A stretch of DNA of 64,000 nt from Dermanyssus gallinae (lineage: Eukaryota; Arthropoda; Arachnida; Mesostigmata; Dermanyssidae). Location of the stretch: contig QVRM01005202.1 in the NCBI GenBank assembly GCA_003439945.1, forward strand, positions 884,001 through 948,000, written 5' to 3'. Shown in pieces: positions 2,218 through 46,789 of this stretch (position 1 is the stretch's first letter; each line of letters starts with the position of its first letter). The position numbers and the translations under genes are program-made. The notes under the pieces were generated by a model. That model did not search any database. It saw only the letters and a list, made by a program, of their open reading frames with translations, and was not told where the DNA came from.

Positions 2218-2557
2218 GCCGACAACAACAACAAGCACCAGCACTTCAACAACAACTACAACAACATCAACAACAACAACCACATCGACTACCCCAGCTT
2301 CGGTTCTCATCGAAGACGGTGTCGGCGAGTACGAGCTACGTGAAGACGGCGAGTCGCATGTAGACTATACGCAATACGCCGACGAGGAGGAGGTCAGGAG
2401 AGGCTTTGTTTCTTCGTCGTCGTCGATTGAACAGGCCCAGCCTTCGTTGCACTCGACGCGCGATGGCCGCGTTGTCGTCATCTTTCAAGGACAACGCTTC
2501 CTGGTTCCCAACGACCTGCCGAATATCTCGAACGTCCTCGACACCGAGCAGGTCACG
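2218..2557 (+). CDS. Repeat gene exon 1 (of those visible): Thr-rich stretch plus PR module
   Basis: The acceptor is ...aatgcag at 2217 and the donor ACG|GTGCGT at 2558. It enters in phase 2 and leaves in phase 0, giving residues 1-113. Residues 1-27 are almost all Thr/Ser with terminal Pro-Ala (encoded by ACA/ACC/TCA runs), a likely O-glycosylation-prone mucin-like segment. Residues 28-80 are acidic with a Ser run. Residues 81-113 are the first PR module: GRVVVIFQGQRFLVPNDL and a helix ending DTEQVT. The CAA-like DNA repeat raises some doubt about the exact 5' boundary, but the frame is open throughout. Confidence 0.75.
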
Positions 2558-3752
2558 GTGCGTGGTCGCCTGCTTCTGCCATTCGGCTACCACGTAACCG
2601 AAGAACAGCGAAGGATATGTGATACGTGCCGTTACCCTGCTAGGGTTGATAATCAGGCACAATGAAATCACGTTATGCGAGTGTATAAAAATATTTCATA
2701 TATGGTGTACGTATGGGTAAGATTTGTGTGACGGTGCGTGTTGGTTTGTGTTCGTTGTCATATTTCAGCGGTTAGTGGCGAGTCTTTCGCTGCTTGGTGT
2801 GCCGGTGAGTCTGCAGCAGGGCCGCGTAGTTATTGTCAGGAAGCCAACGATCCCTATCGTCGACGTGCGGCAAGTGGATGGAAACCAGGTAGGTCAAAAG
2901 GGACTTACACAGCAGCCCTTTAGACACCTTAGGGATGCTTTTTTTAAAAGATTTTCTGTGAGGCTAATGTCAGTGTACGGTTTTTTCATGTTATGTCTAA
3001 TTTTTATTCCACTCCGATATTTACTTTGTCTAAATTAGAAACCATGCAAGCCAATTTAAGAGTGGCCAGTCTGGGCCTCGAACCCAGTCCTCTCGATTTC
3101 AAGGCAAAGGCTTTGCCACTAAGCCATCTTGCTCGGTGTTTCCTCCTTGCATGGTTTTTAATCCAATTAAAAAATAGGAACACGAACAAAGATATTTGCT
3201 TCCAATAATGGACCTCAACAGAAAAGGTGGTAATCGAAAAAAATGAGAAAACGCATTGCCTATTGCTTTTCTAGAGCGACGCCATCTGGCATTGCCTATT
3301 GCCTGTCAATATAACGACCTCCTTCCCAGACGGTAATCAAGGAGTCTCCGGCAATAAGGGTTTCAGTAGAGAATGCTCTTTCTAAAATCCTTTTAAAAGT
3401 ACTAAAGATAGTTATGTATTTAATTGCTGTTCTGCTCGTACACGTGTTTAGTATGTATGTTCGCTGTGAAACCTTCCCCCAGTTAAGTTTCGTTAAAGTC
3501 ACTGAATAAGAGTAGAGGAAACCGCGCAATTGCGAACAACTCCTGCCCTAATGCGCTGACACCCTTTATTGCCAAGCTTTATCAAGCCTGATATTCTTTT
3601 GAATAAAAATAGGTGCTTGCAAGGCAAAACTGGTGATCGTACATTAAAAGCCGTTGTTACTAACGGGAGTCCTTTTTTATTATATATATATATATATTTA
3701 GAAAATATTGTGATGATTTATGACAATACGTTTGCACACTCGGCAGTGCTCG

Positions 3753-3801
<49 letters not shown>

Positions 3802-6178
3802 GCTATGTATTAATCTATATATAGTATATGCAGTTTATGCAAATGTTTACATGCAAAGGTGAGGGCAGTTTGCTTTGCGGACAAATTTAACTCTCTTTAA
3901 GGTACTTACGATTTTCATTTAATGACACTTTAAAGCGGGTTGTATTAGCATTTCCGTTCTTTGGCTTGTGGCTAAATGTGTCAAAAAGAAAACCTGTCGT
4001 GTTTAAATTGCCACTTTGTATTTTTGACTTGGCCAGCCATATTACGTTTTTTCAAATGTAGGAAATGCTTTTACGCACACCCTCTGATGTCAGTGGTGAG
4101 TAGTGTGGGGCTAAACGCCGAAGGAAAGTATAATGCTTGATCCAATCCGCGCGCGCTACCCATTAAGAACCATCTCTCCCACCCTCTCCTTATTCGGAAT
4201 TCACTTGATCTATTTCCACACCAGATTGGGTAAATCATACAGTAGTATGATCAATATCGCTACAGCCTTGTAATTATATTAATAATTACAAATCGCTCAG
4301 TGCTAGCCTTGTTAGCGAGGAGACTGCATTGCACTTACTGCCATGATATCTAACACATATACCATAACAATATTTACAAACACATGTGTCACATGGTTCA
4401 TGGCAAGCGTCTTTCTGGCATAGGAAGTGTTAAAAACCGTGTACAGCAAAACGGGCGATTATGCGCCTGTCTGTCCTGCCTGTGTCCTTCCATTCTGACC
4501 TAACCATTGCATCTGTCGTATAAAAATGTGTCTCGATCTCTGCCTTCATATCGCCGTATAAACTCGCTGTATGCGGGGGTGTCTGAGAGCGCAAACTGTT
4601 TTTTGATCTGTTCCACGAATAGTGGAGCATTGCACAGTAAATACGTAAGGCGGTTGTATGCTGACGTATGTAAACCTTTTACCTGTTTAAAAAAAGCTGG
4701 TTTCACCCAATCGAGTGCACCAAGTTGAACCGAGCTTAGCTTTGCCCACACAAGCTGAATCTTGTATGATGCAATTGGCGTTATTTTCATATCGAAGAGA
4801 GCTTGCGCTGTCTTAATCGAGAACATCTGGGGCTTCTTAAGGGCTATCGCTGCGATCAAGGCTTTTCGAGACCTCTCCTCTATGTGTGCAGCGAAGATCT
4901 TGGCTGATGGGACCAGTGTGATACCGAGATATGTAAACTTATTTACATAGTTCAGGTCCTGTCATTTTACCTAAATGTAGCGGTCAGGGCCGTGACTAAA
5001 CTTCATGGCTTCTGTCTTCTGCATATTTATTTCAAGTCCTACTACGTTCACATACGCTTATAAAGTAGCGAGATTCCTGATTCGGAAATGTGAAATATTA
5101 CCTCGAGACCAGGAGAGGGGAGTCCCATGTTACGACCCTATCCTTAGTCTACGAGTATGTCTCGAGCAGGGAGTGGGTCTTGCCCGGCGGTGGACACAAG
5201 AAACCTAGTGCTGATTTGCGATCTGCGGCGATCCTCCTGGCGAATCTTTTCGCGCATAAACCCGTCAAGGTATAGGATCTCAGTGTGCCAGCCCGATGCC
5301 GACTCGAGCGTGTTGCCAATGAATGCTCGGCTGGTTCAATCTGTTGGCGGCCTCAAATCTCAAAGTCGACCGGAGTCTGGACCTTGTCGTTTCGAAAAGC
5401 AGGCCTGTGTCCCTCAGAGGCTAAAGAATGCGAAAACGCTAGCGTGAAATCGACTTTCATATAATCTGCTATAGGGAGATTAGAAATCTTGAAACGCTTG
5501 TTCTCCGCTTTCCTTCAGTCCGGTTGATGTTTTTTTGTTGGAGAGGAGCTGACGAACTACAGCATCCATCACATATATTTGGTCCATCGCATATATATGT
5601 ATATATATATATGCTCTTGGACGACCGTGAGCTAGATTATATATATATATATATGTGGTTAAAATTCCCGGATTATTGGAACGATCATAATTTATTTCTT
5701 TGTTTATTGTTCATTGTGACAGATCTTGGTACACGTCGATTCGTCGACATTTACCCTTCCACAGGAAGCCGACCGCCTCCGAGTGCTCTGGAAAGAGCAT
5801 CCTGAATACGTCTACACAATCGTCGTTGTATGTATGGCGACAGAGCAAATCCTTATATATATATAAAATGCAAAAGCAAGACCATGGCTATCGTTTCTTT
5901 TAATTGTGTACGATTTGACAACAGTTCAACCTTCCGAATATATAAAGGAAATATATTGTTTCATGTGTCTGTAAATGTTTATGCATTTTGATATTCTATA
6001 AAATCATCTCACGCTTTATTTGTATATCGTCAGCGTTAGCATACACACACACACACAATACTCCAGCAGCGACTTTTACTTATAGTACCCAGTGTAGCTA
6101 TTATATATATAGGTAAATCGAAATCGTTAACCGCTACTTATATATATGTATATATATACATATATATACACTTATAGT

Positions 6179-6233
<55 letters not shown>

Positions 6234-8127
6234 TTTTAATGATCTTAGTGTTCCAAAATATTACCAAGTTATATGAGTTAGCGTTTTAGTTGCAACGAAC
6301 AGCACATCTACTGCGCAAATTGTTTTGACCTGCCGCCAAAGCCTCTTCAAGTTCACTCAGTGGCACAGCCAACAAACGAGCTTAAGTCCATGTCCTTAAA
6401 AAGGCGGGTTTAGTACCAAACCCGCATCAATGTGGCATGCTGCAGCGGTACGCAAGAGTTAACGCAGAAACGTTTTTTTTCACACACAATAGTTTGCATT
6501 TCATGGAGGAACGACAAACGAACCAAGCTAGCATGCTCATCGATAAATTAAACAGGTCCCCTTAGCTCATTACCATATCTCGACCATTTTGTATGCGCCT
6601 TGTTCATTGCTGTATATATGTACACGCGACTTACAGAAGCGTTTAATTCTAGAGAGAGACCAGAAACGCACATATATTATGTGCTAACTACACGTGGGGG
6701 GGGGGGTACACGCTGTTACGTAGAGGGGAGTACCTAAAGAGAGAGTTTATAAGCGTGAACACGTCAACGAAGATCCACATTATCGAAAACGCAAGCTAGA
6801 GCGAGGGGTGAGCCATATAAAGTATGTTATGTAGAAGTAAAGAAAGCAGAAAGGGAGCGAGGAATAGGAAGAGATCTTTTTTTAAGATCATCTATCAGAT
6901 GTGGTCTAAAGCCAGCCAAGGGTCGCCTTAGTGCTCTGTTCGCCCGATGGGGGCAGCTGAGGCAAAAGGACAAATGCTATGACGAAGGGAAGCATCACCC
7001 GTGCCTGGGTAGGTGAGCATAAACATGTCGAAAACGTGTCGGGTGGGGGGGGGGGGGTTGTGGGGTTGCGGGTGCGTCGAATGGGGGACCGGTTACTCGA
7101 CGTGACCGTAATGACTGTCCGCAACGGCTGTGTATGACTGGCGTTGCAGGGCCATCCCAGATGGTCGATGGTGCTTGGACAACCTTTGCTTTGGCAAAAT
7201 TATATTCATGCTGATGACCACGTTCTTCTCACGCAGGAGTTGGCCCGTTTACACTACCCGCTCACCGTGCCTTCCCGCGACGTCTCCACGTGAGTATTAC
7301 CCTCCACAGCGTAGAGTCTATTTATACATATATATTATATGTATATACTATACATCAGCCAGCAGCATGCTGTTTGGTATCTTACACAGTAAGCGCATCT
7401 GGTTTAAGATATATTCAACAAGGAACAACATAAACTTTCATATAAATATATATATACGTGTATGTGGTATACTTCTTTGGGCGATGCTACAACGTGTTCA
7501 AATTATCATTTTTGATCAAGTTCTAGCATCATCTACTTTGCTTTGTCCGAAGGATACTCGTGTTGGCTACCGTAGGGTAAATAGTCATAATGAGATTCGT
7601 TTGCAAAAATCGGAGGAATATATATATATATGATTGTCCAGAAGTTTCTAAGGTAAAGATTATATACATGATTATATACATGTATATATAGAAGTATTTA
7701 TTGTTTTATTAAATATTTAACTGCCTACATGACTATGTCACTAACATACAGCATTCCTATACAGCATTATCATACATCCTATGCACATGCCATACATCAC
7801 GATGTGCTGTGTGTGTCCTTGCGCTTTGGTTTGAACAGTTGGGTAAGCCGGATCCCGGCGTACGATTTGTCTACCACAGACGATGGCCAGATGGTGATTC
7901 AAGTCGAGGGAGAGCGTCTACAGGTGCCCAGAGACCTGCCTCAGCTGGCCACGCTAGTCAGTCCCTCGATGATAGTGGTAAGCGAACACTTGCCAAATAT
8001 GGCGTCTACGCTACTTACTGCACGTATTTACGCAAATATCAAATGGCTATGCATATACTATTTTAAGATTATATAAACATAAAAGCTTCTAGAATATATT
8101 GTTTGGGTAGCACCATGTGTGTGCCAT

Positions 8128-8159
<32 letters not shown>

Positions 8160-11100
8160 GGGTAGCACCATGTGTGTGCCATCTACATATATATATATAT
8201 ATATATCGCGTGGCCACTTTAACTTGCCATTGGTTTTGTGCGGCTGCCATTTATTCTTCCGAGATAAATTATGGGAACTTGCTTATAATAGATCAAGGTT
8301 TATTGTCCTTAGGAAGCACCTCTGCAAGAGCTAAACGTGTCAGGGGACATACAAGTTTTAGGTTCCGAGTGTGTACCTCTCGCTTGACGCTGCAAAAGAC
8401 AAAGCGTTCGTAACGGTATATTTGTATACCAGTCACCAAAAACGTGACATTTGTATTATCTTGTCTATCTAGGCTATCATTACTCGACTCCAGCAGATTG
8501 GCATTCCTGTCAAGTACGCCAACAATCGCGTGATTGTGACAAGGGAGACGACCTCCTCATACAGGTAGGCTCGGTTTATACTATATATCTAGAGATATAC
8601 GCATATACCTATAGATAGGTGTCTGCGTATGCATATACCTATAGATATGTGTATGCGTATATACCTGTGTAGATGTTCATATATGTAATTGCATCGAACA
8701 GACAGTTGTTCTTATGAATGCTAACAACTTCTTCCCATAGAAAGCCAAGCGCTGTTGGTCAACACTTCTTAACTGCAGTGCAATTGTCGCGTGAACTCTT
8801 TCAAGCAAGCAAAGGAAGATGCGCATTCAGATGCAAATAGCGCATTTTCCGACAAAACCTGCTTTATTTACTTCCTTCGCCAGGAATGCTTATATTTTTG
8901 TTTCGTTGAGATATTGTGGTACACTTTCATATTTTTTTACAGCCGCTCCAATTCTCAAAATACACTAGTCGCGGTTAGTTCAGTAGGCAATGCAATAGAC
9001 AGACCAAGCCATGCCTAGACAGTTCTAGACTTAGCTTAGTACAAATGACTACAATCAATAACTATTCTTAATACTCTAGGTTAGCCAGCTGTTTTGTTCG
9101 TACATGGCTAGGCATGAACTTTGTATCACACATTGTATGTGTGCGCTAAATAGACATTTTATTATAACGATTTTATAAGCCTAAAACTTACAGGTCGGGA
9201 AGAGGTGTTGTACCGCGTATATGAGCAGCGTATATGTAAGAGCGGCCGGATTTGGCGGACAAGTTCTACTGTGTATTGCGACTTTCTCTCGATCCACCAT
9301 AGGTGACGTTGTGGTCGAAAGTTGGCATCATTTTTGTGTAGACCTAATGTGCTATATTTAAGCATACGATCAATAACTATTCTAAACAGCCCCCCCCCCC
9401 CCACTGCGAACGCAAACGCTTTATCATTCAAAGTAGTCGCTGGTAATCAGAGCTTTCATGTAGATGTGAACTAAATATGTAACCAGCTACTGCACTTAGA
9501 ATACCTCTCCATAGGAAACTACGCTTACACATGCAATTGATTTTGGTTTTTCGAGGTCGTAATGTAATTTCTGTGCGCTGTCTCGTGTGAGGTGTTATTT
9601 GGCGCCGCCATTCGTCTGCATTCTCTGCTGAGCTTAACGGCTATCGGTGATCGTCTCGAGTTTGATTAGAGACTTGCTCTAAAGCTGAGTTTCTGAAAAT
9701 ACCTTCTTCCCGAAAATACCTTGTCATCAAAAACCTTGACGTAAACGTTTGTCCGTTTGCGTTTGAAACACTTTTTTTTTCTGGGAGGTTTCGGGAATGC
9801 ATGATGCACATGCGCCACTAGCAGCCTGCGTGACTAGTGTGAGACTCGCAAACCCACTAAACCCGGATTCCTCCCCACCCCCCAGGCTCGGTAATACTTT
9901 GGCATTACATCGAAGTAACATTTGAAACACTTGGCAAGCCCGGACCAGCGCCGGCTCCACTTTTAACCAAAATCTGCAAGCAAACCTTGAAGCACCACTG
10001 GTGGCCTAGGATCCAGAGAGTTCGTTTGCTAACGCTTATCAATTCAAATATAACGTGAAAACGCCGCTTTGCTGTTATGTACAGGTAGTTCAATAAGTTC
10101 TTAGAATGAGCTTTTTAGAATTCGAATTTTGGCACGCTTTCACCGCTAATAGGAACTGCAACTTTTCGACTTCAATATATTATGGTGATTGGCCGTTGCG
10201 ATTTCGTTTGATAGCTTTCCCGTGCAACGTATCGGCGTGATTTTTAAAAATGGAGAAAAAAGAGTTTCGAGTGGTTATCAAGCATTTTTATTTCAAAGGT
10301 TGGAATGCGACCCAAGTAAAAATTGAGTTAGACGAGACGTACAGTGACTCTGCGCCATGTTTTGCCACTGTTTCCAACTGGATTAATGTGTTAAAAAGAG
10401 GTCGCAGGAGCACCGAGGATGAACTACGTCCAGGAGGCCAAAAAACGGCAACTGATGAGGAAAACGTAGAGAAAGTGCGAAAAATTCTTGGCACAGATAA
10501 GCGAATGAACATTAAAGAAATAGCGGAGGCATTAGGGATCAGTTTAGGCAGTGTGCATTTTATCCTACACGAAAACTTGAAGATGAAAAAGCTTAGAGCA
10601 AAATGGCTGCCGCATTTGCTCAACCAAGGCCAAAAAGACGCGCCTGTTTTGGCTTTACAGCGAAATTTGGCCAAGAGGTCGAACAATCTGTCGGATTTTT
10701 GGTGCAGATTCATGACCGTCGATGAAAGCCGGGTTCATCACTACACTCCCGAGACCCAAGAAGCATCTTGCCAATTGTGTGCACCTGATGAAGGACCTCC
10801 AAAGAGGGTGCGGACAACGGCATTGACCGGAAAGGTGATGGCTACAGTTTTTAAAGACCAACGTAGAATAATGCTGGTCGACTACCTTGAGAGCTGTAAA
10901 ACGATCACAGGAGAATATTATGCAAGACTGTTGGACTGCCGTTAGCAAGAACTCATCGTGAAACGGCCCGCTTTGCAGAAGAAGGTTGTCCCGTTTCACC
11001 AGGGCAATGCTCCTGCACACAAGTCCCGGCAAGCATCGGCAAAACTGGCCCAACTGAGGTTCGAACTCATTGAACAACCCTCCTATTCTCCAGACCTGGC

Positions 11101-11389
11101 CCCCTCTGATTATTTCCTCTTCGGACATTTGAAGAATAGTCTCGGTGGAAAGCGTTTTTCCAGCAATGAAGAGGTTAAGGCTGCTGTCAATGCCTATCTT
11201 CAGTCTAACGACGCGGAATTCTACTCAAGAGGTATGAAAGCTCTGAAATCTCGGTGGGAAAAGTGTATTGAGCTTCTCGGGAAGTTTATCGAATAAGAAA
11301 AATTTAAAAACATGATTTGGAAAATTCTCGGTTTTCATTCTAAGAACTTATTGAACTACCTGTAATATAAACAGGTGGTCAACACCCAG

Positions 11390-11420
<31 letters not shown>

Positions 11421-12728
11421 GCAATACGACAACACCCAGAGTTGGCGAATAATCGCCACAAGCGGTAGCACAAGTCACGTGGGGTAGGACACAATTATAA
11501 AGAACACGTGCTTTATCCGGCACCTTCAATGTATTTGCTATGCTAGGGAACTAACACTACTTGCGGGTTCTATCTTGACCACGCTTAATTTTGAACAGCA
11601 CTGGTGCGTAAAATCACTGTAATGCGATTGCAGTATTATTCCACTGTTTCCGTCTACCCAGGTTGCAGCATTATTCTATCGTTTCTGTCTTACAGCATTA
11701 TAAAATTATTTCACCCTTCTTTGTGAATTTCTAATTTTTGTGGTTTAAGCGAGACCTAAAGCATTTCTTTAACGTTTTACCTCTAAAAAAATGCAATAAC
11801 CTAGGTCGGCCGTACCTAATGAAGATTTACTAGGGATCTTCAAACTCGCTGAATTTGGTGTAATTTGAGCAGCGATCAAATCCCAGGAAGCGACGCCCGG
11901 AGATTTATTTTGCCTCAATTGCCATAATCGTTCTGCGGCGTTAGTAATTAACAGTACATCTCCTGGCGATAAGTATTTTTTTTTTGGCGCATGATTTCTA
12001 CGCTACCCTTGCCGGTCCAGGTCCACTTGCTTCATTGCCACGATGGTATATTATATTGTGTGTATACGGCAAAGACTTGTAGTTGCCTCCTAATTGCAAT
12101 GGGCTCTTAGGCCTAAGGCCTTCAGGTAAGAAAGGAAAGCTGCACCACTTGGTGGATAAATTCATATGAAGTGCCGCCGGATCTGGCGGGTAAGTTCTCT
12201 TGTACACTGTAACTTTATCTCTTGTTACAATAGGTGGTGTTGAGCTTGGACGACGATGTATATAAACGCAACAGTATAGATCTCCAGAAATAAATTGATA
12301 TATTTATATATTTTTTTGTTAGCGCACATATGCATAAATCTAGAATTTGTACAAATGTTTTGGCTGCGTTTGCATCCACGTTCTATAACATGATGCCTAA
12401 CCTCTTATTCAAGTGCTTACGGCCTCAGGCAGTCAAGAACACGGCGTGTCTCGTTCAATATAAACTCAAAAGCCTACGTGGTCTGTACTGTGGACTGAGT
12501 AATATTACACTTTCCGAAGTCTTCCAGGTTAGCCAATACTTTCAGAAGTACTAATTCGATTTCAGAATCGAAGTGGAGGTTCGTAGTCGCGGAAACCGCC
12601 TTATCTCAGTCGTGATTGTAATGAATGGACAGCGCTTTGAGCTTCCTCGGGATACCGAAAAATTCCAGCAGGTTATTAAAACAGAACCAGAGGTTACCTT
12701 CAAGCTATTTAAGGTAAGAGCACACACG

Positions 12729-12763
<35 letters not shown>

Positions 12764-15700
12764 TCAGGTTCTCAAATCTTTAGTCGGACGCGCACCAGCC
12801 GGTTTTAAGATCAAAGACGGATATTAACAGCTTGAAAGGGTCGCACAGAAGGCTATAATGCGGCCTAAGTCTAGGAGGTCCCGTTCGTGGTTCTCTAGGC
12901 TTGTTATCTCAGTCAGCATGGCCTGATGAAGCTTCTGCGTTAAGCTAAGGCCACAAATCAGACTATGCTTGACGTAAGAAATCTATTGTTAAGCTATGCC
13001 GAAGGCACAAGGCAAAGTTTGTCCAGCGGCAAGAGAGGATCTTTCTAGCAAAGGTGAAGCGAGGTCCTTGCGTTACTTGAGTGTGTTACTCAAACGCGGA
13101 ACGAGCGCATCTAATGATCAAGCCCCCGCTGGCTTTGAAACAGGCTACCATGAATAAACAATTCACAGTGGGTGCTATGCTAAAGAAAACAAATCTTGTG
13201 AACTGTGCGTACTAAGAGCAATCTGAGCATACCCTTGTGGGTATCCTTTGTGATTTGTTCGACACGATCATCAGGAAAGAAACGAATACCTAGGCCTTTG
13301 ACTACTTTGAATACCTTTGACGCGTTTCCAGGATTTCTGTCATTTTTGAGGAAAAACTAAAAAATAAAAAAAATAATAAAGGTAAAAAAATTGTACCGAG
13401 TTTTGCCTCAGCAAGAACGCTCGAGAAGAATATTTTTCAAGCGAATTGTAGCAAGACTGGACTCCGCAATGAACCACAACATTTTGCCTAAATAACTCGA
13501 GCCTCGGTGGTGTGTAGATGCAAGACGCCGTTCACGTGCTGCAATCAGCATTTGAGCAAGCTGCGGCAGAGCTACAAGACCAGTTGCATGTAGTTTTCGT
13601 AGACTACGTCAAAGCCCTTGACAAGGCTCCTCGTCACTGACCGGTGGACGCGTTTAGAACACCCATGAAGGCCGAGGCGTCGAAATTCCGACGAGGAGCG
13701 CCAGTTACGACTAGCGATACTATCTTCTGCTATTGGAAGCCCCTGGAGTTTGCAAACACGCTTCCGTGTTTATGACTTTTACTTCACTGTACGGAGACGT
13801 GTTTTACGGCAAACGTTGATCATGTCATAAGCTCAGCCTTGGCTAATGATTATAGGGGTGTAGGAAATGTCAAACGACTTCCCGTTGACGCAGCTGTGTG
13901 TCTTGTTATGGTGAAAACGCTTTCAAAGTTGGCACACAGTCTAGAGAATGTGTGGATCCACCTGACGGAGGCGAATCGGTATTCCCTCTAGAGTTGCTTA
14001 GCGACGTAAAAAGCCATTCAATAGCCTTGCTGGAAAAGCATGCCATCCTTAAGGAGGATATTCTGTATTTTATCAGGGCTAAAACCCAATCCGTGTATGC
14101 CCTGACTGGCTGTTCGCAGATAATAAAGGCGCTTCGGCTGAGACTGCACATGTCTACAGCTCCACCGCTTTACGAATTCTTCATGAAGTGGGGGACGTAA
14201 CACAGGGAGCGGCTGAGATAAAAAAAATACACGTCTCGCTCTTACCTCAATTCTGGGCCAGAATGGCCTGTGACGAAAGCCACGTACACACAAGGTACTG
14301 CATGCATGGCTATTTCCACTTTCTGTATTTGTTCAATGAATTTCACACGAAGTATCTCCATGCAGTTGTCGGCTGTGCTCGCAGAAGTTCTTCCCAATCT
14401 CGAAATGAGTGATGACAATGACAGCATTTTATCTAAAGAATAAATTATGTACATATATAAACGAAAGGAAAACTTATAAGTACATATACTAGGTAGTCAT
14501 CTATGACCGACAAAAGAGCGTTCTGCTAGATTGTTTACACGACGTTTTATATTTACTTTACACGTCTTTACAGCTGCTAGCCCAATACCACATTCCGGTG
14601 GAGTTTGACCAGGAGAGTGGTACCGTTTCGTTTACATTCGACGATGATTCAGGACATCAGCCGCCTTCTGAACTGTACGTGTATACATATTTTACTTGGT
14701 TGTTCGTTATTTAAAAAAATGTCCTACCTATAATAGGGTCACCTAGTAAATACAATTGGCTAATTTAAGAGTCTCAGCCAGTACACTTTATAGATGTTGT
14801 TCATAGGTGTAAACTAATCGGCGTACTTGTCATCAAGTATAATATATGTAAAATGTATGTAATAAAATGTATAATTTATGTAGAATGTATAGATAATAAA
14901 AACCTAGCAAAAATGTTTCTACGTGATCTGGTGAAGCCTTTCAGTGCATGCTAATCGCCTAAAATATCGTTATCCCTTCTCTTAGCCCTTACGAAATAAT
15001 CTCCCAGCAAGGAAATATCATCATACGCATTGGGTCGGACGACTTCGAGTTTCCTCGAGACCTACAGCGGCTCTCTGCTATGCTCGACCACAATACTCTG
15101 CAGGTGAGGATCCGTCCTCATACGATTATACTAATCATAATAATTAACTCTAAACTTGACAGAAATTATTGGGACCGTCTTATGATGCCCCTATCTATTA
15201 GTTCGAATAACTCCGACAAAAAGTACAGGAAGCATTATTGATCCGAATATTAATGAACAATAGAGTTAAAATTGACATAGGTGCCTGATAAAAGTCGTAG
15301 TTTGGATTTCCAAAATGCTTTCAATACGGCCTCTAGCTTCCACCAGCGGCAAAGTTCCAAAGACTCTTTAATCCTGGCCGAAAGTACAGAGGTAACCATA
15401 CGTTCGCAATCCAGTATTTAACAGGCAGGCCATCTAGAGCTAGCCTCAGCAGAACTGTGACGAGCCAAAGATGCACAATTCACTCGTCGAAAAATAAGGA
15501 TTAAAACTCAACGCGCCTAAATATGAAGTTATAGCATTGAAGTCACATCCTAAGCTCAAGATGGCGCATTCTGAACAATCACGGAAGTACTCTCTTTGGT
15601 AGGTCTGATCGAACACAGGATACCCTACTTAGACACCCTAGGATCGCCGCTAACGTCAGGAGAACGTCGCGAGCACTTTTTAAAGCGAAAATTCACCAAG

Positions 15701-18202
15701 ATTATTTTATTGGATGCGTCCCCAAGCCTTAAGTATCAGTAAAAATTGTCAAGACTTAACTTGGCCCCGGCCCCCTAGATGTTGCCTGTTTGACGTTCTG
15801 ATGCAAAGGCGAGCTAAACGCAAGAGGGGCCGCTACGCCCCCCTGCTGACAACCGGCTGATGACATGATTTCAGTTTCACCAAACATCAGAGGAGCCGAT
15901 CAGCTACTCGCTTAGGGCATCACTGGATAGAGAACCAAGGCGTGCTTGGAAACCTCTGCTAAGAGATGCCCCCTTTTTTTTTAGATTTTCCGTAAGGCAA
16001 TTGCTTGTGTACAGTTTTTTCATGTCATGGCTATTTTTAATCCACTCCGGCATTTACCTTGTCTAAATTGGAAACCATGCAAACCAATTTAAGAGTGGCC
16101 GGTCTGGGTCTCGAACCCAGTCCTCCAGAATGCAAGGCAAAGGCTTTGCCACTAAGCCATCTTGCTCGGTAAAGCAAGTAATACATTTGTTTAAATTAAA
16201 AAAAAATACTTTTTAAAACGCAACATTTCTCGTTGTTTTCGAGAAAAGTGCAAGCTCTGTGAGCAATTAAGTCCGCTCCATTTTTAGCGGCACACCCAGT
16301 CTGCCGTGGCTGCCGGTAGTTTTTCACATTAACCTGGAGCAGCAGGATCTTTGTCGCCAATCTACGCAGAGTGTAGCCAATGCCTATGAGTCGGTATCCC
16401 CCAGTTTTATTTTTCAAGGCGATAAGCCTCCTACCATATATAACGTTTCTCTTGGCCGTGGGCAGGTAGAAGGCGTTTTAGATGGTCAGGCGTGAAGCTG
16501 CCGAGGCCTCTCGCCAAACTAGATGGAATGGCGCAAAGTACGTCGGCCGCATCGTCGTTCAAGCACGACCCGACCCGATAGGGCACCACGTCCCCTGCAG
16601 GAGCAGGAGGGTTCTTTGCCATCTCACTAATCGACTCCTCCGTTACGGACGCAATCTGGTCGTCGGAAGACAAGATTCTAATGGCGCTCCGCACATTAAA
16701 ATCCATGGAGAGCTTGTGAGCAGCAATCTAAGCGCAAGCTTTAGCCGTCATTACACCCTCCACCATCGGCTTTTTCGCGATTGAGAGCGGCACCTCCGAA
16801 AAAAAAAACCTTTCCCTGACCACGCTGGCCAGGCTATGGCCTCTTTGATTTTCTTTGTCGACGTGGAGAACTTTTGGGGGAGGATGAGCAGTGCAGTCCA
16901 GCTCTTTCCGTCCTTATTTTTCACAACTTCTTCGAGCAGACGGTGGATGAGCCCTAACATATTTTCATCTTAGACCACGCAATCAGAATGAGGTCTAGGC
17001 AACGACCGGTCGGCCACGGACACCCAAGGCTAATAGCTCAACGTTAGGTCAAGTATTATTGCAAATCGACGCAGGAGCAGCTTAGAGGTGTACCTTAATA
17101 ATCACGCCTATACAACCGCCAGTAGATCAATGCCAAGCAAAGAACATTAGCGAGTAAACCACGCAAAGCGCAAGTAGGCGGACGACAACGCACGCTCTTT
17201 AGTACGTTTGCTCATATCTTCTGACGTGATTAACGTGATAACTACTGAAGAGGAATTCAAGAATACGTACCCTCTTCATAAGGACAGTAGCAATGAAGCA
17301 ATGCAGAATTCTGCTATGCTGGACTCAACTACTTTCCTATGGCTGCCGCTATAAAATTGGAGCCGTAACATACGATACCTTGCCTTGCGGAATCTCAGAC
17401 TAAACAACGACAAGATACCTGATGGCGTGACCGTCCCTTTGTGGTATCATGGGAAGTGCTATAGGTTGCTATAGTGTCTAGATCTGTAATAATAATAATA
17501 ATAATAATAATATTAATAATAATAATGCTATTATTGTTTTATAATGTTCAGTTTTGCGATTGTGGGGTACAAACGCTGAAGCCAGCTTTGTTATTATTGT
17601 AAAAATAATTTGCAGCCATGAGGCTCCATCAGCGTTAGGGTTTGACTAGTTCCTCGCGTACGAATATATGACAAGAAACATGGAGGAAATAGCTTCGGTT
17701 AAAGCAGTTGCCTTTATAAACTAGAATTTCGAGTCAACGACTTAATAGATTACACTGACATATGCATGTAGAGGCATGGTATTAATCGTAGTGGTATGTC
17801 ATGTTAATTTCCAGACCCTCGTAGCCGAGCTGCGCTCCTTTGGTGCCCCTATAGAAATGCGTGGATCTCGTCTTGTCATCACCCGAGAGCGGACAACCAG
17901 CTACAGAATATCGTTACAGGTGAGGGTATATATATACATATCGTACGGAAAAATCAGGCTGGGCGATACTCCTGAGTACCGTCCGGCCTGATTTGTTGGA
18001 CGAGGTGGGTAAGGCAAGCACAGCTCATTGCGAAAACGTTTAAGCTTGGCTATCTTGTGATAATAGGTTAATGCACCCCATGTTCGAAATTGTCCTTCGT
18101 GTTGTGTCATAGGTTACAACGATGCGAGGTCAACCCATCAAAGCGGTCGTGACCATCAATAACGACAGGTATGATTTCCAATGCTAAATTTGTCAGCTTT
18201 TG

Positions 18203-18241
<39 letters not shown>

Positions 18242-19033
18242 CTTCGAATTCATTCTGCTGGCTAGATTTTAACAGTTAAAAAGGCAATAAATCAAATAGA
18301 AGACGTGACGGTTCTTCTTGTCTACTGTATTCTCAAATTATTTTATAGATTAAAATATTTATGGTATTATACTGATAATGAACAATTAGGATTAGTGTTA
18401 TTTACTATATTTCATTTAACTCAAATTCTATTATACTATATGATTTACACTTATTAGCGTTTTCTTCATAATTCTTAATCTTCTTCGCACTTCTGAGAGA
18501 GAAGTGGTGCAAGAGTTTAAGTCTTTATATTAGTATTGCTGCTACTAACAAAGTATAAAAATATTGTTTTTACAGCTGAATTTGCCCTAAAGCACTAGAA
18601 CGGAAAGGCATATGAAAATGTTATTGGCCATATATTTACGACTATTGCTTTTACTTTCCACGGATGTCGTATGCAAGAGGGTAAACAATTATACTAAAGA
18701 TACACCACTCAATTGACAAAAATCCCCCAGATATCAGCTGCCGGCAGATGAGGAACGATTCCAGGCGTTCCTAGCGAAGGAACCATCGATAAATTACAAA
18801 ATCTTCCAGGTAAGCATCGCAGACAAACTACTGGACTAGCCTAGCTGTGCAGTTAATGACCTCAAATTAACTCCGCTACATTAAACACGGGCTAGCCGGT
18901 CGGGTGGTCGACCACGCGCTTTACAAACTATACGTGATGACGTTGAATCATTGTGGTAGCCGGTATCTTAGCTTAGAAAATCAACATCATGTAACATCTT
19001 TAAGCACAAGATCTGCCGGTTAGATCCCATCTG

Positions 19034-19071
<38 letters not shown>

Positions 19072-25000: not shown

Positions 25001-26415
25001 CGGCCAGTTGACTTAGAAGCGGGTCTTCCTTGTCTTCCTTATCTAGTTCTAGGCCGACGTCTTCCACCGCTGTTGGCTCGTCGCCCTGTTCCATGTTCGG
25101 CTCCGCGCTTAGATCCTTGTCCGGGTGAGAGCCCTTGTTCTCGTCCGATTTGTCGCCCGGTTCTTTGTCCAGCCGGGTGCCTTTCCCCTTATCCGGTTCC
25201 TTGCACTGAGGGGCTTGGCTTAAAAACATCTCGCTACCTGCAAGTGTGGCGGTAACCGGGGAAGATGCAAATCCACACCGTCGCAACACCACCATCAATC
25301 TCTGATTCGCCGTTTAAAGGCAATTTCGCCACCGTGGCAGTTGATGTAGAGCTAGCAGCAACTCTGACGACAATGCGCAGGAACCACACTGGAAGGCCTG
25401 ACACGACCAAACGATGACGATGAAAAACTTCGTAAGTCTCGACTCAATAGTCTACGTGGGCACCACTCGACAGCAGATGACCGAACACAAACCACACGGC
25501 AGCTGGAAACAGGCCGACTTACGGACATGTATATAGTACTATTTATTCAACTATAAGATGGCAGACAAAAGCAGTGTCGCCGAAAATAGCGCTGCGGCTG
25601 TCGCGCGACGCGTCGGCGGTAGTGAACGTCGCCACACAGTCATTTTACATGCACTCAATCTCGACATGCCCTCCGAAAAATCGTAATTACTCCGCAACCA
25701 CAGCTCGCATGGACATATGTTTGGTACCAAAATGATCGCCATGAATTGCGCATTGGCTGAATATGTCCGTTTTGAGCGCTGTGAGTGATTGTAGGGTTAT
25801 GATTCTAAAGTATTTGGCGTGAACGCTAATAAAGAACTTTATTTTTGGCGAATTCAGATGGAGCAGAATTTTATCACGAACACGATGGTGTACTTAGTTT
25901 CTGTCTAGGAAAACTGGTTGTCTCGCAACAGCACATTTTGTGCTCCTATGTCGGGCAAAAACACCAGTGTCACAAATTGTAGTAATTTCACTCTCACTCC
26001 GAAACAAGACTTCTCAGAGACCATGTTCCATTGGAAAAAATATTTGCTTTAACGAGCTCTACAATTCTGTATATCGCGCTTCAAATATTCCTGCAACACC
26101 CTGTATATATATATGCAATTTATAACAAGCATTCTGTCAATTCTGCTCTTGCTGCTCGCGTACGGTCGTACCGGTTTTGCGTTGCAGTTGTTGTCCAGCA
26201 AGAACATACCGGTGAGCTACGACAACGAGACGCGTCGTGTACGAATCAAGTTCGCCTCCCCGAGCGAGCTACGTGCAAGGCGTCCGCCAGGTGCGCGCGT
26301 GACGGCCACCAGGTATAGTAGCAGCAGTAGCAGCAGCAGCAGCAGTCAACGCATCCCCGCTACGCTTGTCTATGGTCAGAAGTCACCTTCGTCATCGTTC
26401 GTATACCGAGGTTAA
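2218..26415 (+). CDS. Unrecognised 13-exon gene encoding a Cys-free tandem-module protein (5' partial)
   Basis: Thirteen exons (2218-2557, 2769-2888, 5723-5827, 7237-7289, 7839-7977, 8473-8564, 12566-12713, 14574-14674, 14986-15103, 17815-17919, 18113-18168, 18731-18809, 26188-26415) splice with GT/AG sites and matching phases into 560 intact codons plus TAA. After a Thr/Ser-rich acidic start, the protein alternates two modules. The PR module is a hydrophobic strand, G-x-x-F, a (V/L/F)P(R/N/A)(D/E) motif and an amphipathic helix. The L module is a Leu-rich helix, (I/V/A)P(V/I), then a V-I-V-type strand. Alternate modules are most alike, so the period is about 145 residues. There is no cysteine and there are only two tryptophans in 560 residues, suggesting an extracellular, matrix or cuticle-like protein (inference). 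I recognise no family and assign no function. The 5' end, promoter and any signal peptide are not in view. Confidence 0.8.
2558..2768 (+). other. Intron 1 of repeat gene
   Basis: A 211-bp intron with donor GTGCGT and acceptor CATATTTCAG. No other feature was seen in it. Confidence 0.7.
2769..2888 (+). CDS. Repeat gene exon 2: L module (odd type)
   Basis: Forty codons, phase 0 in and out, between ATTTCAG and CAG|GTAGGT. It gives residues 114-153: LVASLSLLGVPVSLQQGRV, then VIVRKPTIPI and an acidic turn ending VDGNQ. It aligns with exons 6 and 10 (Leu-rich helix, G-x-P-V/I, R-x-V-I-x-R/T-R). The last residues belong to the first strand of the next PR module, so the following intron sits about ten residues further downstream than in the sister copy (exon 6/7). 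Confidence 0.8.
2951..3136 (-). mobile_element. tRNA-derived SINE, copy 1
   Basis: On the minus strand the element begins CCGAGCAAGATGG, has an A-box-like TGGCTTAGTGGC and a B-box-like GGTTCGAGGCC, then a shared unrelated tail (TAAATTGG..TGCATGG, TTTAGACAAAGTAAA..., AATCGGAGTGGA-like) ending near ATGAAAAAACCGTACACTG and an A-rich end. The same 170-190-bp unit recurs at 15983-16169 and 59612-59783, all on the minus strand. Shared tails outside the tRNA-like head argue for a SINE rather than a true tRNA gene. Confidence 0.75.
3755..3797. repeat. (TA)n microsatellite
   Basis: About 43 bp of perfect TA dinucleotide repeat in intron 2 of the repeat gene. Confidence 0.95.
4270..5080 (-). pseudogene. 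LINE RT C-terminal fragment with Cys-rich finger
   Basis: The minus strand encodes, with two stops near 4980, INMQKTEAMKFSHG and NKFTYLGITLVPSAKIFAAHIE (end of the RT domain), then an open stretch 4859-4430 with the post-RT region (FDMKITPIASYKIQLVWAKL, VKGLHTSAYNRLTYLLCNAP). Reading on past a frameshift to about 4290 gives a Cys/His cluster (CHEPCDTC..C..C...CVRYHGSKC). It is a 5'-truncated, decayed copy of the same LINE type as at 50240-51000. Assignment is by motif resemblance only. Confidence 0.65.
5723..5827 (+). CDS. Repeat gene exon 3: PR module (even type)
   Basis: Thirty-five codons, phase 0 at both ends, between GTGACAG and GTT|GTATGT. Residues 154-188 read ILVHVDSSTFTLPQEADRL, then a helix RVLWKEHPEYVY and TIVV. 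It aligns with exon 7 and with exons 11 plus 12: strand, x-x-x-F/Y-x-L-P, acidic helix and a final hydrophobic strand of Y/F-K/T-hydrophobic type. Confidence 0.8.
5828..7236 (+). other. Intron 3: microsatellites only
   Basis: The 1.4-kb intron holds (CA)n at about 6041-6057, a 49-bp (TA)n at 6183-6231, G runs at about 6694-6708 and 7046-7058 and a pyrimidine-rich acceptor (ttcttctcacgcag). No gene or transposon protein was recognised; the minus-strand frame at 6906-7124 is driven by Pro/Gly-type base runs. Confidence 0.6.
6183..6231. repeat. (TA)n microsatellite
   Basis: Nearly 50 bp of uninterrupted TA repeat. Confidence 0.95.
7237..7289 (+). CDS. Repeat gene exon 4: short L module (even type)
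   Basis: A 53-nt exon between TCACGCAG and AC|GTGAGT, phase 0 in and phase 2 out. Residues 189-205 read ELARLHYPLTVPSRDVS, with Thr 206 split across the intron. It corresponds to the start of exons 8 and 13 (L-L-A-Q-Y-H-I-P-V and L-L-S-S-K-N-I-P-V) but lacks their longer strand, part of which continues in exon 5. Its small size would hide it from simple ORF searches. Confidence 0.7.
7290..7838 (+). other. Intron 4
   Basis: A 549-bp AT-rich intron with several short TATATA runs and acceptor TTTGAACAG. Nothing else recognised. Confidence 0.65.
7839..7977 (+). CDS. Repeat gene exon 5: PR module (odd type)
   Basis: A 139-nt exon, phase 2 in and phase 0 out (GTG|GTAAGC). Residues 207-252 are WVSRIPAYDLSTTDDGQM, then VIQVEGERLQVPRDLPQL and a helix ATLVSPSMIV. 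This is a clear PR module with the VPRDL motif shared with exon 9 (FPRDL) and exon 1 (VPNDL). Confidence 0.85.
7978..8472 (+). other. Intron 5 with duplicated (TA)n-linked unit
   Basis: A 495-bp intron. It contains a direct duplication of a 29-bp unit (ttgggtagcaccatgtgtgt...) each followed by (TA)n, at about 8103-8206. The acceptor is cttgtctatctag. Confidence 0.7.
8103..8206. repeat. Two-copy tandem unit with (TA)n tails
   Basis: The unit ttgggtagcaccatgtgtgt...ctaca occurs twice, each copy followed by 22-28 bp of TA. The identity of both copies suggests recent unequal exchange or slippage through the TA tracts. Confidence 0.9.
8473..8564 (+). CDS. Repeat gene exon 6: L module (odd type)
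   Basis: A 92-nt exon between TATCTAG and CAG|GTAGGC, phase 0 in and phase 2 out. Residues 253-282 read AIITRLQQIGIPVKYANNRV, then IVTRETTSSY with Arg 283 split. It is very close to exon 10 (…RLVITRERTTSYR), the best evidence that exons 6-9 and 10-13 arose by duplication of a multi-exon block. Confidence 0.85.
9240..9340. repeat. Diverged interspersed repeat, copy A
   Basis: Shares with 12171-12280 an ordered series of blocks (GCCGGATTTGGCGGAC, AAGTTCTcttGTgtA, ATAGGTGaCGTTGtGgTcGa). About 100 bp, both on the plus strand, both in intron 6. Its origin is unknown; it could be a MITE remnant. Confidence 0.45.
10082..11362 (+). mobile_element. Complete mariner element, 1281 bp
   Basis: Both ends carry the same 28-bp inverted repeat starting CAGGTAGTTCAATAAGTTCT, flanked by the TA target duplication (10080-10081 and 11363-11364). 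The length and transposase position are typical of mauritiana/irritans mariners. The element sits in intron 6 of the repeat gene in the same orientation as the gene, and splicing out of the intron would leave the gene intact. Confidence 0.95.
10250..11296 (+). pseudogene. Mariner transposase, inactivated by one stop and a catalytic Asp loss
   Basis: The frame 10250-11296 has 348 sense/stop positions plus the final stop, full family length. Residues 1-110 form the paired-HTH DNA-binding region (KRGRRSTEDELRPG linker). The first catalytic Asp is Asp158 in MTVDESRVHHYTPE. A single TAG at 10943-10945 (codon 232) splits the frame. The second catalytic position is Gly252 in FHQGNAPAH, where active mariners have Asp. 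The third is present, Asp287 in SPDLAPSDYFLF, with the D34D spacing preserved. With both a stop and a missing metal ligand it cannot be active; the low number of lesions implies a fairly recent insertion. Confidence 0.95.
12171..12280. repeat. Diverged interspersed repeat, copy B
   Basis: Partner of the repeat at 9240-9340 (GCCGGATCTGGCGGGT, AAGTTCTCTTGTACAC, AATAGGTGGTGTTGAGCT). Confidence 0.45.
12566..12713 (+). CDS. Repeat gene exon 7: PR module (even type)
   Basis: A 148-nt exon between GATTTCAG and AAG|GTAAGA, phase 2 in and phase 0 out. Residues 284-332: IEVEVRSRGNRLISVVIVMN, then GQRFELPRDTEKFQQVIKTE and PEVTFKLFK. This is the most canonical PR module, with G-Q-R-F-x-L-P-R-D and the closing strand TFKLFK, which matches NYKIFQ of exon 12. 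Confidence 0.85.
12714..14573 (+). other. Intron 7: (TA)n and decayed RT fragments
   Basis: The 1.86-kb intron holds a 30-bp (TA)n at about 12731-12761 next to the donor, and a decayed plus-strand RT fragment near 13500-13900 (FVDYVKALDKA, an RT domain A motif). A further short open frame at 13898-14200 I cannot assign. The acceptor is ttacacgtctttacag. Confidence 0.55.
13500..13900 (+). pseudogene. Non-LTR retrotransposon RT remnant
   Basis: Translated with stops, this region gives QSAFEQAAAELQDQLHVVF then VDYVKALDKAP, resembling the region around the first RT aspartate (F-x-D-x-x-K-A-F-D). It is heavily decayed and short; family placement is not possible by eye. Confidence 0.45.
14574..14674 (+). 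CDS. Repeat gene exon 8: L module (even type)
   Basis: A 101-nt exon between CTTTACAG and ACT|GTACGT, phase 0 in and phase 2 out. Residues 333-365: LLAQYHIPVEFDQESGTVSF, then TFDDDSGHQPPSE with Leu 366 split. It matches exon 13 at the same spacing (LLSSKNIPV, then PSEL), which supports both as the even-type L module. Confidence 0.85.
14675..14985 (+). other. Intron 8
   Basis: A 311-bp AT-rich intron with repeated GTATAATxTATGTA motifs near 14840-14895 and acceptor cccttctcttag. Confidence 0.7.
14986..15103 (+). CDS. Repeat gene exon 9: PR module (odd type)
   Basis: A 118-nt exon, phase 2 in and phase 0 out (CAG|GTGAGG). Residues 367-405: PYEIISQQGNIIIRIGSDDF, then EFPRDLQRLSAMLDHNTLQ. It aligns with exon 5 (DLPQLATLV) and exon 1 (DLPNISNVL): the odd-type PR modules share PxDL and a shorter helix without the closing F-K strand. 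Confidence 0.85.
15290..15960 (+). pseudogene. LINE RT fragment, 3' side, plus strand
   Basis: With several stops it reads LDFQNAFNTASSF (RT domain A) and further on YLDTLGSPLTSGERREHFL, the post-palm region seen in LINEs with the C-terminal module present at 28684-29370. It starts at the same RT position where the minus-strand piece at 16196-16960 breaks off. Confidence 0.5.
15983..16169 (-). mobile_element. tRNA-derived SINE, copy 2
   Basis: Same unit as 2951-3136: minus-strand head CCGAGCAAGATGGCTTAGTG, B-box-like GGTTCGAGACC, then the shared tail through TTAGACAAGGTAAATGCCGG to an A-rich end (about 15971-15983). Confidence 0.75.
16196..16960 (-). pseudogene. LINE RT fragment, 5' side, minus strand
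   Basis: The minus strand shows a pre-RT linker (SSLARGLGSFTPDHLKRLLP), then KNKTGGYRLIGIGYTLRRLA (the G-x-R-P-I-x-x-G-x-x-x-R-R-L region) and GADLIAHRACTFLE. It ends at VLKS..F, just before domain A. It has frameshifts. The 59868 copy (KNGCVRPIACGSTIRR) is the same family. Confidence 0.6.
17815..17919 (+). CDS. Repeat gene exon 10: L module (odd type)
   Basis: A 105-nt exon between AATTTCCAG and CAG|GTGAGG, phase 0 both ends. Residues 406-440: TLVAELRSFGAPIEMRGSRL, VITRERTTSYRISLQ. It is nearly identical in pattern to exon 6, but the donor lies four residues further on, so the intron phase differs (0 here, 2 after exon 6). Confidence 0.85.
18113..18168 (+). CDS. Repeat gene exon 11: first half of PR module
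   Basis: A 56-nt exon between TGTCATAG and CAG|GTATGA, phase 0 in, phase 2 out. Residues 441-458: VTTMRGQPIKAVVTINND, with Arg 459 split. An extra intron, absent from the sister modules, cuts the PR module just before its Y-x-L-P motif. The intron before it is 193 bp. Confidence 0.8.
18169..18730 (+). other. Intron 11 (extra intron)
   Basis: A 562-bp AT-rich intron with a 34-bp (TA)n at 18205-18238. No transposon protein seen. The acceptor AATCCCCCAG is unusually C-rich. Confidence 0.65.
18731..18809 (+). CDS. Repeat gene exon 12: second half of PR module
   Basis: A 79-nt exon, phase 2 in and 0 out (CAG|GTAAGC). Residues 460-485: YQLPADEERFQAFLAKEPSI, NYKIFQ. With exon 11 it forms a full even-type PR module matching exon 7 (KTEPEVTFKLFK against AKEPSINYKIFQ). 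Confidence 0.85.
19835..22807 (-). pseudogene. LINE ORF2: AP endonuclease, reverse transcriptase, CCHC; two premature stops
   Basis: Read straight through, 22807-19835 is one frame of about 990 codons interrupted only by TGA at 21314-21316 and TAG at 20186-20188. The endonuclease domain (about residues 1-220) shows LLLSEPNKSW, VGGDFNAAAREWGS, TFIDLTLGT and SDHAYISF. The RT domain shows KAPGPDGIPAEA, ILALIRKPGK, YRPICLLDTIGK, LLDVRNAFNSLRW, GVPQGSVLGPLLWN and AYADDLAIM. The C-terminus has CVTCETGEVDDVTHTVCFCP, the CCHC of R1-type proteins. The first stop interrupts NM*LTAEL where Arg is expected (CGA to TGA); the second is VT*LNRGHGE, where Trp is common. No ATG opens the frame at its 5' end, so its initiation is unclear. 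Confidence 0.9.
22821..23333 (-). CDS. Extra 170-codon ORF between LINE ORF1 and ORF2, with an internal duplication
   Basis: It starts at an ATG overlapping the last 14 nt of ORF1b in another frame and ends 13 nt before the ORF2 frame. It is strongly basic. Two tandem copies of about 45 residues are visible: NREHVVKRLKRTVLPDEKHF followed by SDHPYYTQYNAAKPIASRP, and KREHASRVLNQIALPDEELF followed by KDSYYIEYDVGKTINPRP. R1-type elements are normally described with two ORFs, so this is unusual. I recognise no domain. The end is Lys/Arg/Asn-rich (KKRKRNKN), a possible nuclear or RNA-binding tail (inference). Confidence 0.6.
   Translation of the reverse strand: MTQHKKTQVNCSRSRASHQTLKEIATRKRAVIGDRRGGSDSTFYRRRMKPRFNLTIRNREHVVKRLKRTVLPDEKHFSDHPYYTQYNAAKPIASRPSSILKHISLTTRKREHASRVLNQIALPDEELFKDSYYIEYDVGKTINPRPPPIVQNEPQAAKQKKRKRNKNING
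23320..24381 (-). CDS. LINE ORF1b: gag-like protein with three CCHC zinc knuckles
   Basis: 353 codons. Residues about 60-200 contain an RRM-like gag region (KYNVRVTKVQRLTSGDMRL ... FIIRDLLEGTSQGDVEQAL). Residues about 207-268 contain three knuckles: CQRCQRVGHHARTC, CHKCGDLGHISNEC and CYNCGGAGHSANSAAC. A Pro/Gln/Asp-rich tail follows. Its ATG overlaps the stop of ORF1a as ATGA. Known role of such proteins: binding element RNA and packaging it into RNPs. It is open and undamaged. Confidence 0.85.
   Translation of the reverse strand: MTSQGEAKGVNKLLECIARKHNIQMGVTQGKNRKGQQARGGARAPSGTSILLQREQGVSYADTLKRLGSMVDPTKYNVRVTKVQRLTSGDMRLIVAETAEGGSASFIEALTTKGGAQASRDTSTPRKFIIRDLLEGTSQGDVEQALKQVIGSAAPLAVEKPQKGYRDRWSAVARVNHSDAAKLTELGKVPIGWASCPISEWVTVPTCQRCQRVGHHARTCTFELVETKRCHKCGDLGHISNECAKAPSCYNCGGAGHSANSAACPNYRSKITEARRQRGQPDLAPTRQNNVAAPPAPTRQQENPTDNAADASDQTANTAEDDDGFRQPSRKRTVRSPPTNLRAAKFQNRNDAT
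24378..25298 (-). CDS. LINE ORF1a: acidic coiled-coil N-terminal ORF
   Basis: 306 codons, ending in an ATGA overlap with ORF1b. Residues about 30-85 are an acidic/Lys tract of imperfect repeats (LDKEPGDKSDENKGSHPDKD). Residues about 95-175 look coiled-coil (Leu/Lys/Arg/Glu-rich), and the C-terminus has VALVAIRLPKD-type strand sequence. In related R1 elements ORF1 is usually a single protein. Here it is either split by one frameshift or translated as two coupled ORFs; the sequence alone does not decide. Confidence 0.65.
   Translation of the reverse strand: MMVVLRRCGFASSPVTATLAGSEMFLSQAPQCKEPDKGKGTRLDKEPGDKSDENKGSHPDKDLSAEPNMEQGDEPTAVEDVGLELDKEDKEDPLLSQLAEMMKLIDDMYRVTASTKNMQTVVKSSTEQLRSLVREAIRTEKARRAERQRAAILKTDKISRQVEAINTLIARCNTEDDLKDLLSRDWPDGAYNNVSHYKESILRESPLRVLIAREEDPVDSATWRNMANQFQGIAGEPGKKVGAVLSRTIQETGDDGLPTARALVAIRLPKDTTPWEEGEMIEKAVVKAIELRNKHEALQDNAPMPT
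25299..25589. other. LINE 5' region and junction
   Basis: Non-coding sequence upstream of ORF1a (minus strand), probably the LINE 5' UTR to about 25540, then about 50 bp of host sequence before the foldback arm. Target-site duplications were not identified. Confidence 0.4.
25590..26103 (+). mobile_element. Solo arm of the 33957-35001 foldback element
   Basis: Collinear with 34437-35001: the loop block GCGCTGCGGCTGTCGCGCGA, CACACAGTCATTTTACATGC, GGTACCAAAATGATCG, TTGTCTCGCAACAGCACATT, ATGTCGGGCAAAA and the terminal ATATTCCTGCAACACCCTG, followed by TA. The opposite arm is missing. It lies just upstream of exon 13 of the repeat gene, so it must have inserted very close to the splice acceptor. 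Confidence 0.85.
26188..26415 (+). CDS. Repeat gene exon 13: L module, Ser-rich tail and stop
   Basis: Starts after GCGTTGCAG, phase 0. Residues 486-560: LLSSKNIPVSYDNETRRV, RIKFASPSELRARRPPG, then a ten-Ser run (AGC/AGT repeat) and a short tail ending FVYRG-stop. The first nine residues align without gaps with exon 8. A possible donor, CCACCAG|GTATAG at 26312 in phase 2 (like exon 6), would remove the Ser tail and imply more exons, but I found no further module downstream. The in-frame stop plus a nearby AATAAA favour a terminal exon. Confidence 0.7.
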   Translation: MLSSKNIPVSYDNETRRVRIKFASPSELRARRPPGARVTATRYSSSSSSSSSSQRIPATLVYGQKSPSSSFVYRG

Positions 26416-33480: not shown

Positions 33481-33532
33481 GGTCCGGTCCAGGTTCGATA
33501 TCGATTGCGAGACGCGGGTCAGACCCAGGGAG

Positions 33533-46499: not shown

Positions 46500-46789
46500 C
46501 TAAGAGCCGCACGAGTCCCATGGAAGAAGACAATAAGACAATCATAGTCGAAGAACATTTAGTCAAGCATAGGAATTGTTTCATGTTTGTATTATTAGTA
46601 GTAGTAGTAGTAGTAGTAGTGCTATTATTTTGGGGCAAGAATACACTTAAACTGACAAAGAAAAGAGCTTAGGCAAAAGCTCTTTGAGGCCACAGCTAAG
46701 ATCGATCGCGTTCCTCCGACAGAGCTGCTGATGCAAGATGAGAGGAATAAGAGAGGCAACGGCAAGATGATGTTGAGTTGGAATACGCG

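Follow-up and report, generated by a model that had tools for sequence, protein, structure and literature searches.

The closest relatives found for the gene described here are proteins of other mites and of a tick that are annotated without a function. They are LOC111267571 of Varroa jacobsoni (isoform X1, 1042 amino acids, uncharacterized), BIW11_01673 of Tropilaelaps mercedesae (651 amino acids, hypothetical) and an 886-amino-acid uncharacterized protein of the tick Dermacentor andersoni. The family of the Varroa protein is recognized by tandem repeats of about 70 residues with LPxD and GxPV motifs, and by a CxxxC pair that follows a hydrophobic start. Both traits are found in the gene of the poultry red mite Dermanyssus gallinae. 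Literature searches with the identifiers LOC111267571 and BIW11_01673 found no publication in the literature collection searched, searches by topic gave no title on the repeat family among the matches listed, and the string BIW11 is absent from the main text of the Tropilaelaps genome paper (PMC5467014).

The analysed window is a 64-kb stretch of DNA (C5196:884001-948000). It contains 13 exons of the gene, all on the forward strand (Table 1), with AG preceding every exon and GT following all 12 that need a donor. When joined, they form 560 codons and a TAA in consistent phases, free of cysteine, internal stops and frameshifts. An earlier note, made from these letters alone, had proposed the 13 exons and the single intact frame, and this part of it is borne out by the splice sites, the phases and a profile from other species. 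The latter HMM was built from 23 repeats of the Varroa, Tropilaelaps and tick proteins, excluding the window sequence, and was compared with six-frame fragments of at least 15 amino acids from the window. Its top 13 matches are the fragments carrying the 13 exons, all on the forward strand (45.7 to 11.1 bits), and the 14th-ranked match reaches just 6.2 bits; the top score in 20 dinucleotide-shuffled windows was 8.6 bits. Exon 4 is the weakest of these matches (E 0.14 alone). All 13 exons were also matched by the Varroa protein in tblastn (E <= 1e-3). Splice sites, scored with simple, hand-typed general consensus values and ranked against the AG or GT sites of the window, mostly score high, the exceptions being the exon 12 acceptor (71st percentile of AG) and the exon 3 donor (90th percentile of GT).

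Exon 4 may be used in a long form, a short form, or both. The long form is included in both the Varroa and the Tropilaelaps proteins, to which it is 66% and 55% identical in frame, each over 47 columns. The stretch specific to it (7150-7236) is open in frame, is preceded by AG, and has a counterpart of 25 residues in the two proteins. The short form, which begins at 7237 and was the one originally proposed, has a good acceptor too and would adjoin both halves of repeat 6, as in other repeats.

Table 1. Exons of the Dermanyssus gallinae repeat gene and of paralogous loci; coordinates without a contig name are window positions.
Feature	Coordinates	Strand	Content	Evidence
Upstream exon 1	C5196:873038-873295		Hydrophobic start (by eye) and VCTYDC (CxxxC pair)	
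Upstream exon 2	C5196:873735-873839		Would end in a GC donor (GCAAGT)	
Six upstream exons	C5196, outside the window		Repeats 1-4	
Last of these six exons	C5196:883021-883082		Ends in phase 2	Joins window exon 1 in frame
Exon 1	2218..2557	+	Thr/Ser-rich linker and first half of repeat 5 (subtype A); phase-2 entry	AG/GT, upstream join, ortholog match
Exon 2	2769..2888	+	Second half of repeat 5 and first strand of repeat 6	Splice sites, tblastn, HMM
Exon 3	5723..5827	+	Remaining first half of repeat 6 (subtype B)	Splice sites, HMM, 78% identity to Varroa over 36 columns
Exon 4, long form	7150..7289	+	29 extra codons and second half of repeat 6	AG, ortholog match
Exon 4, short form	7237-7289	+	Second half of repeat 6	AG before start
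Exon 5	7839..7977	+	First half of repeat 7 (A)	Splice sites, tblastn, HMM
Exon 6	8473..8564	+	Second half of repeat 7	Splice sites, tblastn, HMM
Exon 7	12566..12713	+	First half of repeat 8 (B)	Splice sites, tblastn, top HMM match (45.7 bits)
Exon 8	14574..14674	+	Second half of repeat 8	Splice sites, tblastn, HMM
Exon 9	14986..15103	+	First half of repeat 9 (A)	Splice sites, tblastn, HMM
Exon 10	17815..17919	+	Second half of repeat 9 and first strand of repeat 10	Splice sites, tblastn, HMM
Exon 11	18113..18168	+	Strand of repeat 10 (B)	Splice sites, tblastn, HMM
Exon 12	18731..18809	+	Remaining first half of repeat 10: LPAD motif, first helix	Splice sites, HMM, 89% identity to Varroa over 28 columns
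Exon 13	26188..26415	+	Second half of repeat 10, Ser-rich tail, TAA at 26413-26415	AG, tblastn, HMM
Paralog locus	C305: L026 2703-3221, 6604-9827; L027 122-1557		Several diverged repeats	
Paralog exons	C5858, about 1386-1395 kb (L029, L030)		LPxD repeats	

Several mobile-element sequences share the window with the gene. Within the intron after exon 6, two reading frames hold sequence of a Mariner-like transposase of the Mos1 type (10244-11293, forward strand), where the Pfam model Transposase_1 scores above its cut-off, and HTH_48 and DDE_3 below theirs. A non-LTR retroelement occupies about 19835-25313 of the last intron on the reverse strand, with zinc knuckles (23323-24417) and an endonuclease domain (21317-22828), its remainder being judged from open reading frames. 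Downstream of the gene, at 30768-33532, the reverse strand also carries another non-LTR element, which has both an endonuclease and a reverse transcriptase domain; a fragment of a Tc3-like transposase helix-turn-helix lies on that strand near the left window edge (101-505). An open reading frame at 46318-46668 (reverse strand) combines a hydrophobic stretch with similarity to an immunoglobulin C2-set domain (PF08205 at 24.8 bits, cut-off 21); it may be an early exon of a gene encoding a cell-surface protein.

The gene extends upstream of the window, and the 13 exons make up its 3' part. A search of the mite genome (958,664,175 bases in 7160 contigs) with the Varroa protein gave 22 matches at E <= 1: 18 on C5196, one on C305, two on C5858 and one on C4605. 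The published assembly is reported at 959 Mb in 7,171 contigs (PMC6256547). The 18 matches on C5196 run in the order of the Varroa protein; as single matches, the one on C4605 (E 0.93) and the weaker one on C5858 (E 0.05) lack significance. Eight upstream exons were located, which carry a signal-peptide-like start, the CxxxC pair and repeats 1-4, bringing the gene to 21 located exons, of which those in the window hold six of the ten repeats of the whole protein. Because exon 1 is entered in phase 2 from the last of the upstream exons, its Thr/Ser-rich stretch is an internal linker and not the start of the protein, as had been thought. The description of the protein as cysteine-free likewise stands for the window part but fails for the whole gene, given the upstream CxxxC pair. 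Upstream exon 2 ends in phase 0, but entry into the exon of repeat 1 is in phase 2, and therefore a linker exon is probably missing between them, or one bound is wrong; the gene probably has one further exon beyond those located.

On sequence grounds, the predicted product is an ortholog of Varroa LOC111267571. The two are 60% identical over 526 columns and have the same order of repeats; the Varroa protein spans the whole protein and has four cysteines after its hydrophobic start, as against none in the window part. The Tropilaelaps protein is 54% identical over 98% of the searched region, but is shorter and is without some stretches of the window protein, for which the gene model is perhaps to blame. 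Both orthologs carry an N-terminal part. A first protein search, in which the 7991 best-sharing candidates were scored, returned the Tropilaelaps protein as its one match; a second, with a conserved part of that protein (441 candidates), returned it and the Varroa protein; and a third, with an alignment of three sequences (7990 candidates scored), returned both of these and the Dermacentor protein, the latter with a modest database E-value of 6.4e-3.

The tick protein also begins with a hydrophobic stretch, has three cysteines close to it and contains nine repeats of this type. It is 22% identical to the Varroa protein in the alignment, has a Pro-rich linker, and its repeats do not correspond one-to-one to those of the mites. 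An HMM of mite repeats, those of the window included, found the nine repeats with a summed score of 110.6 bits, while of 500 letter-shuffled versions of the tick protein 167 gave any reported match, with a top score of 3.1 bits. Comparison of the mite and tick repeat profiles by hhalign, both split out of one joint alignment, gave a probability of 97.5 over 61 columns. Mesostigmata and Ixodida are orders of Parasitiformes. The two other mite proteins are acidic (pI 5.4 and 5.5; 6.3 for the window part) and the tick protein is basic (10.1), and thus a single role for the mite and tick proteins is not assured.

At least two further repeat loci occur in the mite genome, on contigs C305 and C5858. 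The best fragments of these diverged repeats score 70.7 bits (C305) and 34.3 bits (C5858) against an HMM that excludes both loci. One of the C305 repeats lacks the usual intron and is read straight through. Upstream, on the strand of these repeats, an open reading frame encodes a hydrophobic stretch followed by CSEQC, and we infer that it is part of the same gene as the C305 repeats.

The repeats number ten when the upstream exons are included, and follow approximately the motif [G/N]xx[F/Y]x[L/V/F]PxD, with a second helix that leads to GxPV. Since BLAST searches of each protein against itself reported the full-length self match alone, repeats were delimited by hand and HMM. Two alternating modules, PR and L, had been described in the earlier note; by alignment and structural model these are the first and second halves of one and the same repeat, about 70 residues long, and the alternation is one of two repeat subtypes, A and B. 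A phase-0 intron separates the halves in ten of ten D. gallinae repeats, at alignment column 50 in all five A repeats (1, 3, 5, 7, 9) and at column 54 in all five B repeats (2, 4, 6, 8, 10), counted on hand-delimited pieces with repeat 6 taken with the short exon 4. Because the subtypes alternate, the array resembles five A-B pairs, and a history of A-B pair duplication may be the simplest reading.

In a tree of 34 repeats, repeats 2-10 of D. gallinae group with the Varroa repeats of corresponding position, weakly supported in the case of repeat 9, and therefore the array is probably older than the split of the two mites. Repeat 1 clusters with two tick repeats in a group that the tree does not resolve, the A repeats do not form one clade, and repeat 6 sits on a long branch away from the other B repeats. 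Thirteen of the 31 inner branches of this tree are open, and its long tick branches are unsure.

AlphaFold2 predicts the order beta-beta-beta-alpha-alpha-beta-beta for each repeat of a repeat pair (pLDDT 89.9, pTM 0.80; alignment of 11 rows cut from three proteins). The earlier note had proposed predicting the structure of a PR and L pair, and in the model both halves fold as one unit. The intron sites map within the second helix of each repeat: where this helix spans 37-49 the site follows residue 41, and where it spans 113-125 the site follows residue 121. A model of the whole-length protein with three rows was poor (pLDDT 37.8) and was left out of the fold searches. The repeat-pair model gave no clear match in the PDB and no match in a viral structure library at E <= 0.001. 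Sequence searches of solved structures gave no match for the window protein, two weak matches for the three-protein alignment (best E 0.45), neither of which was accepted as a relative, and, for the profile of one repeat, 28 weak matches with E values of at most 10. None of the 28 was accepted either, including the best of them (E 0.0034), a chain named Immunoglobulin G-binding protein A that matched over 25 of 71 positions.

No Pfam model scored above its cut-off for the window, Tropilaelaps or Varroa proteins, and the tick protein had no Pfam match at E <= 10. Among 18 single repeats, no Pfam family matched more than two (best E 0.006), and all NCBIfam matches were below cut-off. Partial, weak matches to stretches of 25-43 residues of the Varroa protein were rejected: Fimbrial_PilY2 (PF14481; 22.2 bits against a cut-off of 25, window protein 17.7), YscJ_FliF (PF01514; 18.9 against 24.4, window protein 14.1) and TIG (13.8 against 20.9). 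The copper amine oxidase N-terminal domain CuAO_N1, the first domain of E. coli TynA, has what we take by eye to be a similar linear pattern (a segment ending in G and V, strands, an NGQ strand, VP). It was rejected at an hhalign probability of 4.5% and an hmmsearch score of 1.5 bits, both with the N-terminal segment of this one E. coli sequence as the sole comparison, and appears neither in the Pfam list for single repeats nor among the fold-search matches listed for the repeat-pair model, the latter absence being compatible with a shared fold. The earlier statement that the modules match no family known to its author agrees with the Pfam results for all four proteins. The further proposal of a candidate undescribed family is supported in that no described family was found to cover these proteins, but relatives are already in databases under the labels "hypothetical" and "uncharacterized".

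The signal-peptide-like start, the CxxxC pair, the Thr/Ser linkers and the small domains without conserved cysteines suggest a secreted, extended protein. We hypothesize that it is a scaffold outside cells, a reading to which we give about even odds (probability roughly 0.5). The hydrophobic start, signal-peptide-like by eye, would mark the protein for secretion, the ten tandem repeats would serve as contact domains, stacked or strung like beads, and the Thr/Ser-rich linkers could be glycosylated spacers. Such an extended, disulfide-poor multidomain scaffold might be located in cuticle, eggshell, gut matrix or a secretion. The extracellular role suggested by the earlier note would fit the predicted start upstream. 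More tentatively, the repeat may be a new domain with a fold outside the PDB (beta-beta-beta-alpha-alpha-beta-beta), limited to ticks and mesostigmatan mites, in which duplication of an A-B pair with its introns would have produced a ten-domain secreted rod with a parasite-particular role in extracellular matrix or at the host interface.

Roles in binding, saliva or storage would also be compatible with this anatomy. The main rival to a scaffold is a secreted protein of saliva, gut or haemolymph with a binding function, whose repeats would capture nutrients or host molecules, such as components of a blood meal, with avidity from ten copies. D. gallinae, Varroa, Tropilaelaps and Dermacentor are parasites, and the detection of members in these four species (a bird mite, two bee mites and a tick), like the signal-peptide-like start, is consistent with such a role. 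However, the diets of the bee mites differ from those of the blood feeders, and absence elsewhere says little because two of the three protein searches scored best-sharing candidates alone; we regard binding as possible but doubtful. A storage, yolk or haemolymph protein whose repeats chiefly give mass would also be large, repetitive and secreted-looking, but is unlikely given the order of repeats 2-10 kept between Varroa and D. gallinae and the motif residues kept as far as the tick. It is very improbable that the 560 codons, although cysteine-free within the window, are a complete protein of two alternating modules, as the in-frame upstream join, the N-terminal part of both orthologs and the folding of both halves as one unit argue otherwise. 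A pseudogene or decayed copy, to which transposable-element sequence in two introns might point, is just as improbable in view of the 13 joined exons without a stop or frameshift and the identity to Varroa.

A secreted scaffold is the preferred reading. Whichever role applies, proteins listed as "hypothetical" in major pests (the poultry red mite, bee mites and a tick) can be drawn together into one definable domain family, with a confidently predicted, testable fold for which no clear structural match was found. The intron in every repeat offers a record of how a repeat gene may grow through duplication. Lineage-specific proteins that, like these, are predicted to be secreted would be natural subjects for research on mite biology and control.
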